DNA from: Desulfurobacterium indicum
Lineage (GTDB): Bacteria > Aquificota > Aquificia > Desulfurobacteriales > Desulfurobacteriaceae
Assembly: GCF_001968985.1 (NCBI RefSeq)
Contig: NZ_MOEN01000008.1
Span: 1-62,033 of the forward strand
DNA: 62,033 nucleotides
Reading direction: 5' to 3'
Shown: positions 23,003 to 42,265 of the stretch, piece after piece
How positions within the stretch are numbered: the first letter of the stretch is position 1
How the letters are laid out: each line of letters opens with the position of its first letter
The notes under the pieces: model-generated
Told to the model about the DNA's origin: nothing
Seen by the model: the letters and a program-made list of their open reading frames with translations, nothing else
Database searches by the model: none
Translations under genes and position numbers: made by a program

Positions 23003-24322
23003 ATGATAGCACGCTACTCACTTCCAGAGATGAGCGCTGTTTGGGATTTGCAGAACAAATACAGAACATGGTTAAAAGTGGAAATTGCTGCAACAAAAGC
23101 CTGGGTTGAACTTGGCAAGATTCCGGAAGAAGCACTCAAAACAATCGAAGAAAAGACAAAAGACTATATAGAAGGCAAAAAAATTTTTGATATTAACAGA
23201 ATAAACGAAATAGAATCTGTCACAAATCACGACGTCATAGCTTTCTTAACCTACATAAAAGAGATAGTCGGTGATGCTGCAAAATATCTTCACTTTGGCA
23301 TGACATCTTCGGACATGCTTGACACCGCTTTCGCGCTCCAGATAAAAGAAGCAGGAGAAATACTTTTAAAAGACATAGACAAAATTCTGGAAGCGATAAA
23401 AAGAAGAGCCCTTGAACATAAATATACCATAATGATAGGAAGGACCCACGGCATTCATGCAGAGCCTATCACATTCGGCCTTAAACTGGCTATTTGGTAT
23501 GAAGAGATGAAAAGAAATAGAGAAAGACTTGAAGCAGCCATAAAAAGGGCAGCCGTAGGTAAAATATCCGGCGCCGTGGGAACATACGCCAACATAGATC
23601 CAAGAGTTGAGGAAATAGCGTGCAGAGAACTTGGCATAGGTCACGCAAAAGTCTCAAACCAAGTGGTTCAAAGGGACAGACACGCCGAATTTTTAAACAC
23701 ATTAGGTCTCATAGCAAGTTCAATAGAACAGTTCGCAACAGAGATAAGACATCTTCAAAGAACGGAAGTTAGGGAGGTAGAAGAGCCTTTCAGGAAAGGG
23801 CAGAAAGGCTCCTCCGCGATGCCCCATAAAAGAAATCCTATCCTTTCAGAGAGACTCTGCGGACTTGCAAGAGTCGTAAGAAGCGCGTCCATTGTCGGTA
23901 TGGAAAACATAGCACTCTGGCATGAAAGGGACATAAGCCACTCATCTACAGAAAGAACAAGCTTTGTAGATGCATGCATAGCTCTGGACTATATGCTTCA
24001 GAAGTTTGAATGGCTTATATCAAATCTAACAGTTTATCCTGAAAACATGATGAAAAACCTTAATCTATTAAAAGGTCTCGTCTTTTCTCAAAGAGTTCTA
24101 CTTACACTGATAGAAAAGGGCGGATTAACAAGAGAAGAGGCTTACGCAATTGTTCAGGAAAATGCTATGAAAGTGTGGGCCGAAGGAGTTAAATTTAAAG
24201 AGCTATTAAAGAAAGATGAAAGAGTTAAAAAGGTTTTAACAGATGAAGAGATAGAAGACATTTTTGATCTTTCATACCACACAAAGCATGTTGACTATAT
24301 CTTTAACAGAGTCTTCGGATAA
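23003..24322 (+). CDS. purB: Adenylosuccinate lyase
   Basis: This enzyme catalyses two fumarate-releasing steps of purine synthesis (SAICAR to AICAR, and adenylosuccinate to AMP). It has 439 residues of the fumarase/aspartase superfamily. The signature GSSAMPHKRNP is at about residue 270, with HFGMTSSDMLDTA and GRTHGIHAEPITFG as the other conserved regions. CGGAGG precedes the ATG. The gene ends the long plus-strand group; the stop codon lies in the arm of a bidirectional terminator. Confidence 0.97.
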   Translation: MIARYSLPEMSAVWDLQNKYRTWLKVEIAATKAWVELGKIPEEALKTIEEKTKDYIEGKKIFDINRINEIESVTNHDVIAFLTYIKEIVGDAAKYLHFGMTSSDMLDTAFALQIKEAGEILLKDIDKILEAIKRRALEHKYTIMIGRTHGIHAEPITFGLKLAIWYEEMKRNRERLEAAIKRAAVGKISGAVGTYANIDPRVEEIACRELGIGHAKVSNQVVQRDRHAEFLNTLGLIASSIEQFATEIRHLQRTEVREVEEPFRKGQKGSSAMPHKRNPILSERLCGLARVVRSASIVGMENIALWHERDISHSSTERTSFVDACIALDYMLQKFEWLISNLTVYPENMMKNLNLLKGLVFSQRVLLTLIEKGGLTREEAYAIVQENAMKVWAEGVKFKELLKKDERVKKVLTDEEIEDIFDLSYHTKHVDYIFNRVFG

Positions 24323-24349
24323 AAACGGCGGCCTTAGGCCGCCGTTTTT
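24321..24349 (+). terminator. Bidirectional terminator between purB and the roadblock gene
   Basis: AAAAACGGCGGCC, loop TTA and GGCCGCCGTTTTT form a perfect 13-base-pair stem with T-tracts on both strands. It sits between convergent genes and overlaps both stop codons, so it can end transcription from either side. Confidence 0.95.
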
Positions 24350-24729
24350 CAAGCTCCAAGAACAGATTGTATTCTTTCTATTGCATCTTCAACTTCAAGA
24401 TTTAAAAGTCCCACATTTGCATTTGATTTAACAACGCAAACAAGAATGGCTCTTCTTCCGGCTTTCTTTGTCAAAATATTTTGAGATGAACATCTGATAA
24501 GAGCATCTTGAAAATCACCAGCTTCAACAACTTTGGACAATCTTTCCGAAGTTCCGACAACTGCGGCAGCCATAGCGGCAAGCTTTTCAGCACTTAAACC
24601 GCCTTTAACCATCGTAGAAACAACAACCTGACCGTCTGGTGTTGCAACAAGAGCTCCGAGTATATCTGAACCGAGTGAATCGGCAAGAGACAACAAAATA
24701 TCTTCTAAAAGTTCCCTTTTACTTGCCAT
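24349..24729 (-). CDS. Roadblock/LC7 domain protein
   Basis: This 126-residue protein is of the roadblock/LC7 family, which includes MglB-type GTPase-activating proteins and small dimeric scaffolds. The N-terminal helix ELLEDILLSLADSLGSDILG is followed by GALVATPDGQVVVS and a central helix with AAMAAAVVGTSERL, as in the family. No small GTPase (MglA-like) gene is adjacent. It lies 11 bases after the Hmd paralog and is likely co-transcribed with it, so a role linked to that protein should be considered. Confidence 0.82.
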   Translation of the reverse strand: MASKRELLEDILLSLADSLGSDILGALVATPDGQVVVSTMVKGGLSAEKLAAMAAAVVGTSERLSKVVEAGDFQDALIRCSSQNILTKKAGRRAILVCVVKSNANVGLLNLEVEDAIERIQSVLGA

Positions 24730-24740
24730 AACAGCCTCCT

Positions 24741-25811
24741 TTAATCGTTTTCACCATGATAAAGTTTCTTAAGGGCTTCTCTAACAATACCTCTTGTAAC
24801 ATCTTCCCCTGCAAGCTCTTCCATATAAGATATAAGCATTGGAGAAGGAGCAGAAAGAAACGTTTTTTCTTTTGGTTCAAACTTTGAAGCCATATCATCA
24901 AAACTACCTATAACTCCCTCTATATCAGATATATTTTCGAGAGATTTCATTGCGGCAAAAGAAACTTTTTGAATCTTTTCGTCAAAAAGCATTGATTTTA
25001 GGGATTTTTTAAGAGCTTCAGCATTTAAAAACTTCACAAGACCTTCAATACCATATTTAGCAATAATACTTGAAACAACCTGAAAAGCCTGTGCAAGCTG
25101 AAATTCCGTCATTGCTTTCGTTGTCTTTAAAACACTCTTTGAAACTGCATAATATTCAAGAGCACTAATAGCTGCAGAAGCCGTTGCAACAACACCCATA
25201 TCACCTATAGGAGAAATTAGCTCCGCCGGAATCAGATAAGCTTTCTTTCCGGTATCTTCGGCAAGCTTTTTTAATTTCTCTATCTGATGAGGTTTCACTA
25301 TCTCTTCTTCTAAAAGCTCATTAGTAGCAATGAAATAGTGTGTATGTTGTGGAGTTCCCGGTATGGCAGCCGGATGCAATGTAGAAAAACCTATGTCCTC
25401 TCTGTCCTCCATAAAAAGGACATTCTTAACGGATGTTTCAAGGACAAGAACAGGCATTGTGCAGGTGGTGGCAATAACAGCATCGTTTCCAAGATTAGGA
25501 ATAATCTTCTCGGCAACTTTAACGGTTAAACCGCTTCTAAAGGGCGTAAAAAGAACAGCAACGTCAGCACCTTCAGCTGCTTCAACATCATCAGTTGTAA
25601 GTTTTACACCGGCATCGAGAAGTTTCTGCTTAAATTCCGGTTTGATTGTATCCATTCTGGGATCGGACAGAAAAACTTCATGACCTGCTTCAGCAAACTC
25701 AAGAGCCATTCTTGAACCGCCGTAAGGTGGTTCTCCTCCAAGATTTTCGGAAACTTTCAGGACATTTCTGTAGTAGGTTTGATTACCAAACCCATAAACT
25801 GCTACTTTCAT
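24741..25811 (-). CDS. Hmd-like protein, [Fe]-hydrogenase paralog (HmdII type)
   Basis: This 356-residue protein is related to H2-forming methylenetetrahydromethanopterin dehydrogenase. Matching blocks include GGSRMALEFAEAGHEV (32-47), LFTPFRSGLTV and TTCTMP with C117, which lines up with the cysteine that ligates iron in Hmd, then STLHPAAIPGTPQHTHYF (143-160). By ungapped N-terminal comparison the catalytic histidine 14 of Hmd is Tyr here. Bacterial HmdII of Desulfurobacterium has been reported to use tetrahydrofolate derivatives. No FeGP-cofactor (hcg) genes are in the window, so activity as a hydrogenase is uncertain. GGGAGG precedes the ATG. Confidence 0.85.
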   Translation of the reverse strand: MKVAVYGFGNQTYYRNVLKVSENLGGEPPYGGSRMALEFAEAGHEVFLSDPRMDTIKPEFKQKLLDAGVKLTTDDVEAAEGADVAVLFTPFRSGLTVKVAEKIIPNLGNDAVIATTCTMPVLVLETSVKNVLFMEDREDIGFSTLHPAAIPGTPQHTHYFIATNELLEEEIVKPHQIEKLKKLAEDTGKKAYLIPAELISPIGDMGVVATASAAISALEYYAVSKSVLKTTKAMTEFQLAQAFQVVSSIIAKYGIEGLVKFLNAEALKKSLKSMLFDEKIQKVSFAAMKSLENISDIEGVIGSFDDMASKFEPKEKTFLSAPSPMLISYMEELAGEDVTRGIVREALKKLYHGEND

Positions 25812-25909
25812 CCTGCCTCCCCTAGTTTTAAAATGTCAGATAATTTTATCATAGTCTAAATTGGGAAAAGATTAATAAAAGACAAAAATTGAGAATTTAA
25901 AAATTGAAA

Positions 25910-26599
25910 TTAAAAGAGAGACAGGATTTTCCTGAAACCTTCCGAAGGATTTTCTTTATAAAGTTCTATTCCTAATCTCAAGTCATTAGAAGAAATACCA
26001 AGAAAATTAAGCCTTTCCGGCTTTCTCAAAATATGAAATCCCAAAAATTGAAGAAGATTCCTCGGATTACCAGTAAATCTGGCACTCTCAAAGTCTATAA
26101 ATCTTATACCCCTATCACTCACTATAATATGCTTCTCTCCTTTTAACTCAGAGTGATTAACACCTGACTTATCAAGAATGTAACACTTTTCCATAATTTC
26201 TTTAAGAATATTTAGAAGTTCATTTTTCGAATGGAAACTGCCAAAAGAGAACGGGACACCCTCTATGTATTCCATTATTATTACTTCTTCGTCATAATAG
26301 TAAACAACAGGAGCTATAGATTTTGGTTCCAGATATTCCAGAATCCTTGCCTCTTTCAAGAGAAAGTGCTTTTTACCTGCATCGCTCCTTGCAAATTTTA
26401 TAGCTACTTTAACAGGTATCGTAAACTGGTCGTAAGGCTTTATAAACCCCGAAAAGACCGTTCCTCTGTATCCTTTAGCGATAAAATCACCAAGTTCTAT
26501 ATCAAGATTCTCCAGTGTTTCAAGCCTTCTAAGGACGATATTTTCACGTCCGGCGGGGTAATCAATCAACGACAACAATTGTAAATTCAGGAATTTCAT
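25910..26599 (-). CDS. Atypical protein kinase-like protein, RIO/COG2112 type
   Basis: This 229-residue single-domain protein has a kinase fold. It shows a glycine-rich loop region (GDFIAKGYRGTVFSG, 37-51), VAIK with the ATP lysine at 68, a glutamate in KEAR (83) and the hinge MEYIEG. The catalytic loop reads HSELKGEKHIIV (from H149) instead of HRDLxxxN, and the metal motif is DFE (169-171). From memory, such HxEL loops mark a family of predicted archaeal-type kinases. It overlaps the upstream unknown gene by 38 bases and is last in the rpoN-glnE group. AAGGGAG precedes its ATG. Confidence 0.72.
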   Translation of the reverse strand: MKFLNLQLLSLIDYPAGRENIVLRRLETLENLDIELGDFIAKGYRGTVFSGFIKPYDQFTIPVKVAIKFARSDAGKKHFLLKEARILEYLEPKSIAPVVYYYDEEVIIMEYIEGVPFSFGSFHSKNELLNILKEIMEKCYILDKSGVNHSELKGEKHIIVSDRGIRFIDFESARFTGNPRNLLQFLGFHILRKPERLNFLGISSNDLRLGIELYKENPSEGFRKILSLF

Positions 26600-31246: not shown

Positions 31247-32203
31247 GTGAGTGAAAAAATTCTTAAAATTGGAAAGCAGGTTTTAAAAGAAGAAGGCAAA
31301 GCTCTCATCAATCTGTCAGAAAGTCTGGGAGTAGATTTCATCAAAGCAATAAATATTTTACTCAAAACAGAAGGTAGAGTGGTTTTAACCGGAATGGGTA
31401 AATCGGGGCTCATCTGTAAAAAAATAGCCGCAACACTGTCCAGCACAGGAACCCCTTCTTTCTTTCTCCATCCCGCAGATGCTGTTCACGGAGATCTCGG
31501 AATGCTAAAAGGAGATGACACGGTGATAGCTGTATCAAACAGCGGTGAAACAGCAGAACTTCTTAATATAATACCTATAATAAAAAGTTTCGGCATACCA
31601 ACAATAGCGATAACGAACAATTCTGAATCTTCTCTTGCAAAACTCTGCGATATCAGTTTGGTTCTAAACGTAAAAAAAGAAGCCTGTCCGTTAGGACTTG
31701 CTCCTATGACAACTACAACGGCAACATTAGCCCTTGGAGATGCAATAGCTGCTGCTTTAATGGTAGAAAAAAGCTTCAAAAGCGAAGACTTTGCAAAATT
31801 TCATCCCGGAGGAAAACTCGGCATCCGGCTCTCACGAATAAAAGATATAATGAGAAAAGGAGAAGATGTTCCAATAGTCTCACCGGAAACAACCATAAAA
31901 GATGCTATTTACGAAATATCTTCAAAAAAACTTGGAGCAACACTGGTAGTTGAGAACGGAAAACTTACAGGAATATTAACAGACGGGGATCTGAGGCGAT
32001 TTTTTGAAAAAGGTGGCAACATCAATTCCAGAGTTAAAGAAGCAATGACTCCTTCTCCAAAAACAATTGCAGAAGATGCTTTCGCCGAAAAAGCAATAGA
32101 AATGATGGAAAGATACAAAATTACAGTTCTTCCTGTCGTTGATAATCAGGGAAATCTGAAAGGCATTATACATCTTCATGACATACTGGGAAGGAGGATA
32201 TAA
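31247..32203 (+). CDS. kdsD: D-arabinose 5-phosphate isomerase
   Basis: This enzyme makes arabinose 5-phosphate from ribulose 5-phosphate for KDO synthesis. It has 318 residues: a SIS sugar-isomerase domain (about 1-190, with VVLTGMGKSGLICKKIAATL and VIAVSNSGETAELL) followed by two CBS motifs (about 205-318). The start is GTG 31247, with AAGGAG eight bases upstream. kdsC follows with a one-base overlap, so two KDO enzymes are coupled. KpsF and GutQ are paralogous names. Confidence 0.95.
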   Translation: MSEKILKIGKQVLKEEGKALINLSESLGVDFIKAINILLKTEGRVVLTGMGKSGLICKKIAATLSSTGTPSFFLHPADAVHGDLGMLKGDDTVIAVSNSGETAELLNIIPIIKSFGIPTIAITNNSESSLAKLCDISLVLNVKKEACPLGLAPMTTTTATLALGDAIAAALMVEKSFKSEDFAKFHPGGKLGIRLSRIKDIMRKGEDVPIVSPETTIKDAIYEISSKKLGATLVVENGKLTGILTDGDLRRFFEKGGNINSRVKEAMTPSPKTIAEDAFAEKAIEMMERYKITVLPVVDNQGNLKGIIHLHDILGRRI

Positions 32204-38780: not shown

Positions 38781-39971
38781 ATGGAACTTCTATCACCTGC
38801 AGGAACGCTGGAAAAGCTTAAAGTTGCAGTAAATTTTGGAGCCGATGCGGTATACGCCGGCGTTAAGAAGTTTTCTCTAAGAGAAAGAGCTGGCAACTTT
38901 ACAATTGAAGAACTTAAAGAAGGTATTGACTACGCTCACTCTAAAGGGAAGAAAGTTTACGTAACGTTAAACGCTTTTCTGAAAAATCACGAAATTGAAA
39001 ACTTCAAAAAAACAGTTGATGCGGTAGCAAAACTAAATCCTGACGGTTTCATTGTCGCAGATATAGGAGCATTGTCGATAATAAAAGACAGAACAGATAT
39101 CCCAATCCACATAAGCACCCAGGCCAACGTGACAAACATAGTAACAGTAAAAGCCTACAAAAATCTGGGAGCCAGTCGAATCGTTCTTGCCAGAGAACTT
39201 TCATTAAAAGAAATTGCAGAAATAAAAAAAGCCGTTTCTAACATGGAAATAGAAGTATTTGTCCACGGCGCAATGTGCATGGCATACTCAGGAAGATGCC
39301 TTCTTTCAAACTATTTAACAAAAAGAGACCCCAATCGAGGAAGTTGTGCTCAAAGCTGCAGATGGAAATATTATGTGGTCGAAGAAAAAAGGGAAGGTGA
39401 ACTATATCCAATAGAAGAAGACCATCACGGAACTTACATCTTTAATTCTAAAGACCTATGTGCTCTACCTCTCCTTGATAAACTATACGAAATAGGTGTT
39501 AATTCTGTAAAAATCGAAGGTAGAGTAAAAAGCGTTTATTACGTAGCCGTAACAACAGCAATATATAGAAGAGCCATTGACCTCATCAAAAACAATCCAG
39601 AAAGCTTTAAAACAGAACTCCCGAAACTGTTAGAAGAACTGGATAAAGTAAGTCATAGACCTTACACTACAGGATTCTTACAACAGGAAAAAGAACTGCA
39701 GTACTATCCTACAAGTTCTTACATAAGAAAATATAAATTTCTCGCCATATACAAAAACAACTTCTGGAAAGTTAAAAATCCATTCAATATAGGTGATAAA
39801 GTAGAACTTTTTTCAAAAGACGGAAAAAGTATAAAAGCAACTATTAAGAAAATAGTTAAAAACGGAGAAAAACAGATCCATACAGCTCACACAAATTATA
39901 ATGTTGATATAGAATTTATCCCACATTTAAAACCTGAAAACTACGACATTATAAGAAAAGAAATCACTTAA
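38781..39971 (+). CDS. U32 family protein, TrhP-like tRNA hydroxylation protein
   Basis: This 396-residue protein is of the peptidase U32 family. The block FVHGAMCMAYSGRCLLSNYL, then RGSCAQSCRWKYYV, gives the four conserved cysteines and matches TrhP (YegQ), which with prephenate makes 5-hydroxyuridine at the tRNA wobble position, better than it matches the collagenase-like members. I start at the ATG at 38781, with GATGAGG upstream; an earlier frame from 38718 adds unconserved residues. The 3' end overlaps convergent pilC by eight bases. Confidence 0.85.
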   Translation: MELLSPAGTLEKLKVAVNFGADAVYAGVKKFSLRERAGNFTIEELKEGIDYAHSKGKKVYVTLNAFLKNHEIENFKKTVDAVAKLNPDGFIVADIGALSIIKDRTDIPIHISTQANVTNIVTVKAYKNLGASRIVLARELSLKEIAEIKKAVSNMEIEVFVHGAMCMAYSGRCLLSNYLTKRDPNRGSCAQSCRWKYYVVEEKREGELYPIEEDHHGTYIFNSKDLCALPLLDKLYEIGVNSVKIEGRVKSVYYVAVTTAIYRRAIDLIKNNPESFKTELPKLLEELDKVSHRPYTTGFLQQEKELQYYPTSSYIRKYKFLAIYKNNFWKVKNPFNIGDKVELFSKDGKSIKATIKKIVKNGEKQIHTAHTNYNVDIEFIPHLKPENYDIIRKEIT

Positions 39972-41181
39972 TTAAGCTACCCATCTTAAATATCGGTAGA
40001 TACATAGCAATAATAATAAAACCTATAACTCCACCTATGAAAACCATCATTAAAGGCTCTATCAAAGAAGTCAAACCATCGACCATTGTATCCACCTCTT
40101 CTTCATAAAAATCAGCTACCTTGGCAAGCATTTCATCAAGATTACCAGCATCCTCTCCTATCGCTACCATATTTATAAGCATAGGGGGAAAGATTTTACT
40201 TCGAGAAAGAGCTACAGCAAGACTTATACCTTTCTCCACTTGCTCTTTCACTTTGCTTATTTCCTCTTGAATTATTTGATTATTTGAAGTTTCTGCTGCA
40301 ATATCAAGAGCCTTCAATATATTGATACCACTTGAAAACATAGAAGATAATGTTCTGGCGAAATTAGCTATAGAACTTTTAAGAATTAGCTCCCCAAAAA
40401 CAGGAACTTTCAACATAAACAGATCAAAATAGTATTTAAATTTCGGAATTTTAAGCAATCTCTTAAAAATAAAGATAAAAATTACTATGCCAGCGATCAG
40501 CCATCCTATATAATCCCTCAAAAAATCGCTCGCTTTAATAACCATCCGAGTAAGCGCCGGAAGTTCTCCTCCAAATTCCTTGTATATTCCAGCAAACGTA
40601 GGAATAACAAAAATCAAAATACCAGCTACTATAATAGAAGCTATAATCAAAACAAATGTAGGATAAAACATTGCACTTTTTACTTTTGAACGTAGATGTT
40701 CTACTTTTTCAAGATATTCTGCAAGTCTTTTCAAAGTTGTATCAAGCGTTCCTGCTTCCTCTGCTGCTTTTATCATACTTATATAAAGATCACCAAAAAC
40801 ATCTCTATACTTTGCAAGTGCTGCTGAAAATCTACCTCCCTCCTCTACCTGTTTTGCAACATCTTTTATAATCTCTTTAAGTTTACGATTTGAAACCTGT
40901 TGTTCCAAAGCCCTCAAAGCACTAACTAATGGAATACCCGCATTTATCATAGAGTAAAGCTGGCGAGTAAATAAAACTATATCTTTGAGCTTTACTTTAT
41001 CCATAAAAGACAAATTAATTTCCATATTTAAGCCAGAGGATTTTTCCTCTTTAAGGGATTCTATATAAACAACACCTTTACTTCTTATGAGATTTTTAGC
41101 AATATCGATATTATCCGCAGTTACCTTGCCTCTTTTCACTTTTCCTAATATTGTTTTACCTCTATAACTATAAACAGGCAT
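39964..41181 (-). CDS. pilC: Type IV pilus/type II secretion inner-membrane platform protein
   Basis: This 405-residue GspF/PilC protein has two duplicated cytoplasmic helical domains with three membrane segments. Family marks are FTRQLYSMINAGIPLVSALR, YPTFVLIIASIIVAGILIFV and the second repeat FARTLSSMFSSGINILKALD. The platform protein works with the PilB/PilT motors. It lies ten bases after pilT on the same strand. No pilB or pilin gene is nearby. Confidence 0.92.
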   Translation of the reverse strand: MPVYSYRGKTILGKVKRGKVTADNIDIAKNLIRSKGVVYIESLKEEKSSGLNMEINLSFMDKVKLKDIVLFTRQLYSMINAGIPLVSALRALEQQVSNRKLKEIIKDVAKQVEEGGRFSAALAKYRDVFGDLYISMIKAAEEAGTLDTTLKRLAEYLEKVEHLRSKVKSAMFYPTFVLIIASIIVAGILIFVIPTFAGIYKEFGGELPALTRMVIKASDFLRDYIGWLIAGIVIFIFIFKRLLKIPKFKYYFDLFMLKVPVFGELILKSSIANFARTLSSMFSSGINILKALDIAAETSNNQIIQEEISKVKEQVEKGISLAVALSRSKIFPPMLINMVAIGEDAGNLDEMLAKVADFYEEEVDTMVDGLTSLIEPLMMVFIGGVIGFIIIAMYLPIFKMGSLIK

Positions 41182-41191
41182 ATCTTCTTAC

Positions 41192-42265
41192 CTATCCCGA
41201 ATAAGTTTTTATCAAAGATTCTAACTCCCTAACATCAGGAGAAACTGTTTTTGCTGTTTCAAGAGAAATTGTACCTGAAAGATAAAGTTTTGCAAGAGTC
41301 TGATTCATCGTTACCATCCCGGTTTCAGCCTGACCTGTTTGCATCAATGAATAAATTTGATGAAGTTTATTTTCTCTTATAAGATTTCTTATAGCTGCCG
41401 TCGGAATAAAGACTTCAGCTGCCGCTACTCTTCCTTTTTTATCTTTCCTCTTTAAAAGCCTCTGTGCAACAATTCCCTGAAGGGAAAATGATAACTGAGT
41501 TCTTATCTGAGACTGCTTATCTGCAGGAAAAACATCAACTATACGGTTAATAGTTTCGATGGCAGAATTCGTGTGAAGAGTTCCAAAAACAAGATGCCCC
41601 GTTTCAGCAGCAGTTAAAGCTGCTGCAATAGTCTCAGTATCTCTCATCTCGCCTACAAGGATAACATCAGGGTCTTCACGAAGAGCCGACCTTAGCGCAT
41701 TCGCAAAACTTTTTGTATCACTACCAAGCTCTCTCTGATTCACCAAAGACTTTCTATGTTCATAAACAAACTCAATAGGATCTTCAATCGTGATTATGTG
41801 GTAAGGATAAGTTTCATTAATGATATTAATAAGAGAAGCAAGAGTTGTAGATTTACCAGAACCGGTAGGACCCGTTACTAAAATCAATCCCTGATCAAGA
41901 TGTGCAAAACTTTTAACAACATCAGGTAAGCCCAATTTTTCAAATTCTGGGATTTCAAACGGAATTAAACGGAATACCGCTGAAAGAGCAGAACGCTGAA
42001 AAAAGGCATTACCTCTAAACCTTGCAAGATTCTCTATACCAAAAGAAAAATCAAGTTCCAGTTCTTCTTCAAGACGTTTCTTCTGCATATCAGTAAGAAC
42101 ACTATAAATAAGCTTCTTCGTTTCATTAGGAGTCAAAAGGTTATATTCATCCATTGGAATGAGATCACCACTAACTCTCACTCTAGGAGGACTCCCGGGG
42201 GAAAGATGTAAATCTGAACCTCCCCTTTCAACCAGCTCTTTTAAAAAATCAACTATTGAAGCCAT
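41192..42265 (-). CDS. pilT: Twitching motility retraction ATPase PilT
   Basis: This hexameric ATPase retracts type IV pili. It has 357 residues. Walker A is GPTGSGKST (132-140). The Asp box (ITIEDPIEFVYEH), Walker B region (VGEMRDTETI) and His box (GHLVFGTLHTNSA) follow. The N-terminal GSDLHLSPGSPPRVR is typical. GTGAGGAAAAATA precedes the ATG. Together with pilC it forms a two-gene operon transcribed away from the glycosylation cluster, with its own -10 box. Confidence 0.95.
   Translation of the reverse strand: MASIVDFLKELVERGGSDLHLSPGSPPRVRVSGDLIPMDEYNLLTPNETKKLIYSVLTDMQKKRLEEELELDFSFGIENLARFRGNAFFQRSALSAVFRLIPFEIPEFEKLGLPDVVKSFAHLDQGLILVTGPTGSGKSTTLASLINIINETYPYHIITIEDPIEFVYEHRKSLVNQRELGSDTKSFANALRSALREDPDVILVGEMRDTETIAAALTAAETGHLVFGTLHTNSAIETINRIVDVFPADKQSQIRTQLSFSLQGIVAQRLLKRKDKKGRVAAAEVFIPTAAIRNLIRENKLHQIYSLMQTGQAETGMVTMNQTLAKLYLSGTISLETAKTVSPDVRELESLIKTYSG

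Follow-up and report, generated by a model that had tools for sequence, protein, structure and literature searches.

[Fe]-hydrogenase (Hmd) paralogues of the HmdII type have had a disputed role for years, and have been described as a scaffold, a carrier sensor, a tRNA-synthetase partner and a weak enzyme. The scaffold proposal (Goldman 2009; PMC2739858) was made in a text that does not mention operons, genomic context or GTP, and a role as methylene-H4MPT sensor was proposed on biochemical grounds (Fujishiro et al., as cited in PMC7460606). The bacterial HmdII of the genus Desulfurobacterium is already known and its structure has been solved (PDB 6huy). Small GTPases of the MglA family lack the G3 aspartate, and G1 and G2 are separated by an insertion in the bacterial members; the surroundings of the Group 4 mglA genes are stated to hold no conserved proteins (PMC4316618). 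An earlier sequence-only reading of this DNA remarked that roadblock/LC7 proteins were not known to it as Hmd partners. Text searches combining Hmd with roadblock returned nothing; the primary papers Watanabe 2019 and Fujishiro 2015, which may show the neighbouring gene, lay outside the scope of these searches. Relative to the literature examined, the roadblock partner of HmdII described here is new, and it is general.

The window, the whole stretch of 62,033 nucleotides analysed here, is one contig (C8) of the 1.6-Mb genome of Desulfurobacterium indicum, which is 99.98% complete. The hmdII gene (24741-25811, minus strand; 356 amino acids) encodes the window-type copy of a duplicated bacterial HmdII and is followed, 11 bases downstream, by a gene for an MglB-like roadblock/LC7 protein (24349-24729, minus strand; 126 amino acids), both as the sequence-only reading had placed them. 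The 11 intergenic bases (24730-24740, minus strand) contain what reads as the ribosome-binding site of the roadblock gene, with GGAGG at 24735-24739, and the full Shine-Dalgarno motif AGGAGG overlaps the stop-codon region of hmdII. A perfect GC-rich inverted repeat flanked by runs of A and T (24322-24349) lies between the roadblock gene and the convergent purB gene; it is exact, with 0 such repeats expected by chance, and it is absent from the list given by a consensus scan. This repeat is likely a terminator for both strands, serving purB and the roadblock gene, so that the transcription unit most likely comprises just hmdII and the roadblock gene. The expected place for the promoter of this unit is the 98-base region upstream of hmdII (25812-25909, minus strand), where a sigma-70 promoter scan gave no convincing site and nothing above chance.

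The pair is flanked by purB and by a small kinase-like gene. The latter (25910-26599, minus strand), directly upstream of hmdII, encodes a small protein with weak protein-kinase/RIO similarity; it is conserved in two further genomes (G012, G013), and the hmdII pair stands next to it only at window-type loci. Elsewhere in the window, genes at 39964-42265 (minus strand) resemble type IV pilus PilC and PilT when the sequence is read by eye. In other systems, type IV pili are among the outputs of MglA/MglB. An SIS/CBS protein (31247-32203) gave a weak match to the roadblock profile (E 1e-4) and was ruled out as a roadblock protein by Pfam.

The window HmdII scores 312.7 bits against the TIGR01724 hmd_rel model (cut-off 167.2, residues 1-351), whereas it reaches 80.5 bits against the true Hmd model TIGR01723, below the cut-off of 341.45. 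Its closest solved structure is 6huy, the HmdII of Desulfurobacterium thermolithotrophum (E=9.6e-139, 60% identity). Genome G011 contains the exact 6huy sequence, and so is either D. thermolithotrophum itself or a genome closely matching it. In the alignment with Hmd, C117 of the window protein falls on the iron ligand Cys176 and H146 on His201, and C117, H146/H156, D204 and Tyr14 are all retained. The iron-ligand cysteine and the HPAAIPGTPQH block are kept, as the sequence-only reading had stated, and the protein probably holds the FeGP cofactor.

Residue 14, where the key histidine of Hmd had been thought replaced by tyrosine, is indeed Tyr, but this is not peculiar to the window copy, as Tyr14 is invariant in all aligned bacterial and archaeal HmdII proteins. 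Tyr14 corresponds to Hmd His14 by position only, the N-terminal alignment to M. jannaschii Hmd being gapped there. No histidine occurs ahead of residue 44, which leaves none conserved elsewhere in that part of the protein. A special loss of His14 in the window copy is ruled out, since the tyrosine is found throughout the family, and so is a degenerate copy, given the intact reading frame, the retained binding residues and the presence of the copy in 4/4 genomes of the genus. In Methanothermococcus genomes, three to four diverged hmdII paralogues stand in tandem (L006:6212-11026, L009:8854-12222), and some of them have lost the iron-ligand cysteine.

The roadblock protein matches Pfam Robl_LC7 (PF03259; E=2.8e-10, 40.2 bits against a cut-off of 23), and its profile matches MglB and Asgard roadblock structures. 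Among 24 genomes of Desulfurobacteriales, HmdII is encoded in eight, by 12 genes, and a member of this roadblock family, counted at E < 1e-50, lies directly downstream on the same strand at all 12. The two-gene unit is therefore kept throughout the order wherever HmdII occurs, and the prospect that orthologues might never have the roadblock gene beside them falls away. Chance neighbours are ruled out by this adjacency together with the three layouts that preserve the linkage, described below.

Four further Desulfurobacteriales genomes (G003, G005, G006 and G022) have the roadblock gene without HmdII. In each it stands 9-12 bases behind a gene of the ODP family of diiron/MBL proteins (Pfam PF19583), beside the same GTPase cassette. 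The locus of genome G004 reads ODP, hcgG to hcgA, roadblock, hmdII, cluster 9, cluster 8, GTPase, and that of G003, G005 and G006 reads ODP, roadblock, cluster 9, cluster 8, GTPase. On the simplest reading, HmdII and the hcg genes were lost, or not gained, in such genomes, and the roadblock gene has come to be paired with ODP. Loci L057 and L060-L063 show this exchange, in which the neighbour of the roadblock gene is ODP in place of HmdII. ODP is itself preceded by a small protein that carries no annotation (cluster 30) and may be another roadblock-type protein.

A search of the genome for hcg genes, as the sequence-only reading had advised, located the FeGP biosynthesis genes hcgA-G on another contig (C36), where a second HmdII gene, a roadblock gene and the hcg genes lie in this order. 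The set comprises an HcgA-type radical SAM protein, an HcgB-HcgC fusion, HcgD (NIF3 type), HcgF, HcgE (ThiF type) and HcgG. The order hmdII - roadblock - hcgA - hcgBC - hcgD - hcgF - hcgE - hcgG is found in eight bacterial loci. HcgB and HcgC occupy one reading frame, by Pfam, in bacterial hcg clusters of the order (e.g. L049:5070-6311, on contig C36 of D. indicum). Each of the four genomes of the genus has both HmdII copies. In the HmdII tree the bacterial proteins form one clade with two sub-clades, one hcg-linked and one window-type, and the roadblock tree likewise sets the window-type proteins apart; as both trees split in the same way, the pair was duplicated as a unit. In 64 of 66 bacterial pairwise comparisons, conservation is higher for the roadblock protein than for HmdII, and between the two pairs of D. 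indicum identity is 61% for HmdII and 88% for the roadblock protein.

The linked GTPase (cluster 11) is a small protein with weak Arf/Roc matches. At E < 1e-40 its family is found in exactly those 12 of the 24 Desulfurobacteriales genomes that have the roadblock gene and in 0/12 of the others, among which one genome of 62% completeness has a 60-amino-acid GTPase fragment. In D. thermolithotrophum the genes run GTPase - roadblock-fold protein - unknown protein - hmdII - roadblock - hcgA and onward, and in D. indicum the GTPase gene is on contig C3, away from both HmdII-roadblock pairs. The cluster 8 protein, encoded next to the GTPase, has no Pfam match, and its model (pLDDT 76) matches Asgard roadblock, MglB and LAMTOR structures; profile comparison with the roadblock profile gave nothing convincing, so the likeness is seen only by fold comparison. 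The G3 aspartate is missing (GxPGQ) in all linked GTPases aligned, and a 17-column insertion separates G1 from G2 in the bacterial but not in the archaeal proteins. These GTPases are assigned to the MglA family because both features agree with its description (PMC4316618), and the archaeal members are candidate Group 4 MglA proteins.

The same association is found in methanogens. In M. jannaschii (G036), whose HmdII is the 4yt4 sequence, the gene for a 154-amino-acid small GTPase and then a roadblock gene come after hmdII, while hmdIII has another roadblock gene immediately upstream. From their positions we take these to be MJ1338-MJ1339-MJ1340 and MJ0714-MJ0715, respectively. Among 36 Methanococcales genomes, 29 of them with HmdII/III, the roadblock family occurs in 28/29 with HmdII/III and 0/7 without, one of the seven having a 27-amino-acid fragment (Fisher 1e-6, a value that overstates independence as the genomes are related). 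The two genes are less than 1 kb apart on one strand in 18 genomes; in 11 of the 29 the roadblock gene does not adjoin hmdII. In 12 genomes an intact gene for the GTPase (E < 1e-30) separates hmdII from the roadblock gene; in two (G024:C1:110272-110723, G053:C1:712538-712989) the GTPase gene at this place is broken, in others it stands beside hmdII, and it is absent from the seven genomes without HmdII. In Methanocaldococcus, hmdIII is followed by a V4R-domain protein (L005:2380-2844, L004:11092-11556), another candidate small-molecule sensor.

Among 120 Methanobacteriales genomes, the roadblock family occurs in 20, comprising 16/16 with HmdII/III and 4/104 without (Fisher 2e-16, again overstating the independence of related genomes). 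The roadblock gene is 11-54 bases behind one hmd paralogue in eight genomes and is not next to hmdII in 8/16. The GTPase (E < 1e-30) is present in 20/20 genomes with the roadblock gene and 0/100 without. Where true Hmd is present and HmdII is not, most genomes have neither roadblock nor GTPase. Methanobacteriales also have another roadblock family, more distantly related, whose genes adjoin KaiC-like ATPase genes (L169, L168). Three layouts keep the linkage, with the roadblock gene downstream of hmdII, upstream of it (the MJ0714-MJ0715 type) or separated from it by the GTPase gene (the MJ1338-MJ1339-MJ1340 type). The association of HmdII, roadblock and GTPase is conserved across bacteria and archaea, in three orders of two domains. 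It is stronger than the sequence-only reading had put it, a reading that did not extend to the GTPase or to the further HmdII-roadblock pair with its hcg genes.

A sensor interpretation of HmdII is plausible, and these data suggest that HmdII senses hydrogen or one-carbon status for a Ras-like switch rather than mainly working as a hydrogenase, much as the sequence-only reading had supposed for the pair. That HmdII with FeGP is the ligand-sensing input of an MglA/MglB-like switch is the reading toward which we lean, by a modest degree, because of the tight unit, the co-occurrence in three lineages, the co-duplication, the retained binding residues and the exchange of the metal-protein neighbour. 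In such a switch, HmdII with FeGP would bind a pterin- or folate-like one-carbon carrier, perhaps also H2, and change between open and closed states. Its state (H2 bound, or methenyl- or methylene-carrier bound) would be passed to a dimeric MglB-type roadblock protein, which would alter GTP hydrolysis or exchange and with it the nucleotide state of a small MglA-type GTPase. That HmdII physically binds the roadblock protein and acts as the input is inferred, as are the ligand and the GTPase output. The retention of the roadblock/GTPase module where HmdII has been lost, and then behind another metal protein, ODP, speaks for a switch. Against it stand the unlinked position of the GTPase gene in D. 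indicum and the methanogens in which hmdII and the roadblock gene do not adjoin (11 of 29 Methanococcales, 8 of 16 Methanobacteriales). Four Methanobacteriales genomes have roadblock and GTPase without HmdII, and hence the module does not serve HmdII alone; bacterial HmdII is also reported to turn over folate derivatives, and may thus be an enzyme. In an AlphaFold model of a read-through HmdII-roadblock fusion (L001) the HmdII part is good and the roadblock part is unfolded (pLDDT about 33), and the model gave no usable interface between the two.

HmdII may instead be a working enzyme that performs H2-dependent reduction of a folate-type carrier in bacteria, with roadblock and GTPase setting its activity or cell location, so that HmdII would be the output. 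According to the title of a paper cited in PMC7460606, tetrahydrofolate derivatives are used by bacterial HmdII. These bacteria have no Hmd-type protein other than HmdII, for which they keep the seven hcg functions and whose Cys, His and Asp residues are intact. We nevertheless consider this unlikely, as tyrosine replaces the catalytic His region across the family, archaeal HmdII/III are reported inactive (PMC3087415), and roadblock and GTPase outlive HmdII, coupled to ODP. Less probable again is a role of roadblock and GTPase as maturation factors that load FeGP into HmdII, as might be read from the position of the roadblock gene between hmdII and hcgA in the eight bacterial loci. GTPases do act as maturation factors for nickel enzymes. 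True Hmd has the same cofactor, however, and genomes with Hmd but no HmdII lack both roadblock and GTPase (7/7 in Methanococcales and nearly all such Methanobacteriales), which weakens the case for the roadblock protein as a cofactor-assembly factor. Moreover, genomes that have lost HmdII and hcg still keep roadblock and GTPase, no hcg genes adjoin the window copy, and the title of Lie et al. 2013, as cited, gives hmdII as dispensable for Hmd function in M. maripaludis.

Passive linkage would mean that an old gene order was kept by descent and transfer while the products are functionally unconnected. The genomes inside each order are related and the bacterial pair probably stems from few transfers, but this explanation is very improbable when the linkage recurs in three layouts, the genes co-occur genome-wide even where they lie apart, and the pair was duplicated together. 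The least probable of the explanations considered places HmdII in translation, with the switch reporting on its binding of tRNA or prolyl-tRNA synthetase. It draws on the binding of M. jannaschii HmdII to ProRS and tRNA, as cited in PMC4394549, but among the loci read no translation gene is conserved beside the unit.

Its strict association with a roadblock protein and with a GTPase of the MglA type points to the first specific, readily testable pathway for HmdII. If the sensing switch is real, Group 4 MglA of methanogens gains a partner where none was found (PMC4316618), the retention of seven cofactor genes by bacteria without any true Hmd is explained, and a hydrogenase cofactor can be turned to signalling. 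In its broadest form, the proposal is that an FeGP metalloprotein derived from [Fe]-hydrogenase senses H2 or the state of a one-carbon carrier and passes it to a Ras-like switch of GTPase and roadblock protein, in archaea and also in bacteria, where it was perhaps recruited separately onto a bacterial MglA, with an input exchangeable for a diiron oxygen-type sensor (ODP). This would be a signalling system new to biology, and it is put forward tentatively, as a real possibility that falls somewhat short of an expectation.

The closest described protein is the HmdII of D. thermolithotrophum (PDB 6huy, 6huz), which belongs to the same family, has the 60% identity noted above and shares the same Cys, His and Tyr14 residues. 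Its gene (L021/L050) is directly followed by a roadblock gene, as in the window; the window copy differs in being the second, window-type paralogue, which is found only in genus g1 and has no adjoining hcg genes. HmdII/HmdIII of methanogens (MJ1338, MJ0715; PDB 4yt2-4yte) are also of family TIGR01724 and are linked to roadblock genes in M. jannaschii too, although identity is 41% and the archaeal loci often have the GTPase gene between hmdII and roadblock. In relatives without HmdII, the neighbour of the roadblock gene is instead ODP (oxygen-binding diiron protein, PF19583), a metal-site protein whose fold and metal site are unrelated. The actinobacterial conservon (CvnA-D / Mfp) likewise unites a sensor, a roadblock protein, a small protein and an MglA-type GTPase in one cluster. 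Its sensor is a histidine-kinase-like protein and not a metalloprotein, and it has no Hmd; conversely, no histidine-kinase-like CvnA was found in the bacterial and archaeal clusters read, which sets them apart from conservons. The MglA/MglB switch of Myxococcus and Thermus and the Group 4 MglA of methanogens also combine a GTPase without the G3 aspartate with a roadblock protein, and the bacterial insertion is shared, whereas the conserved partner here is an FeGP-type metalloprotein.
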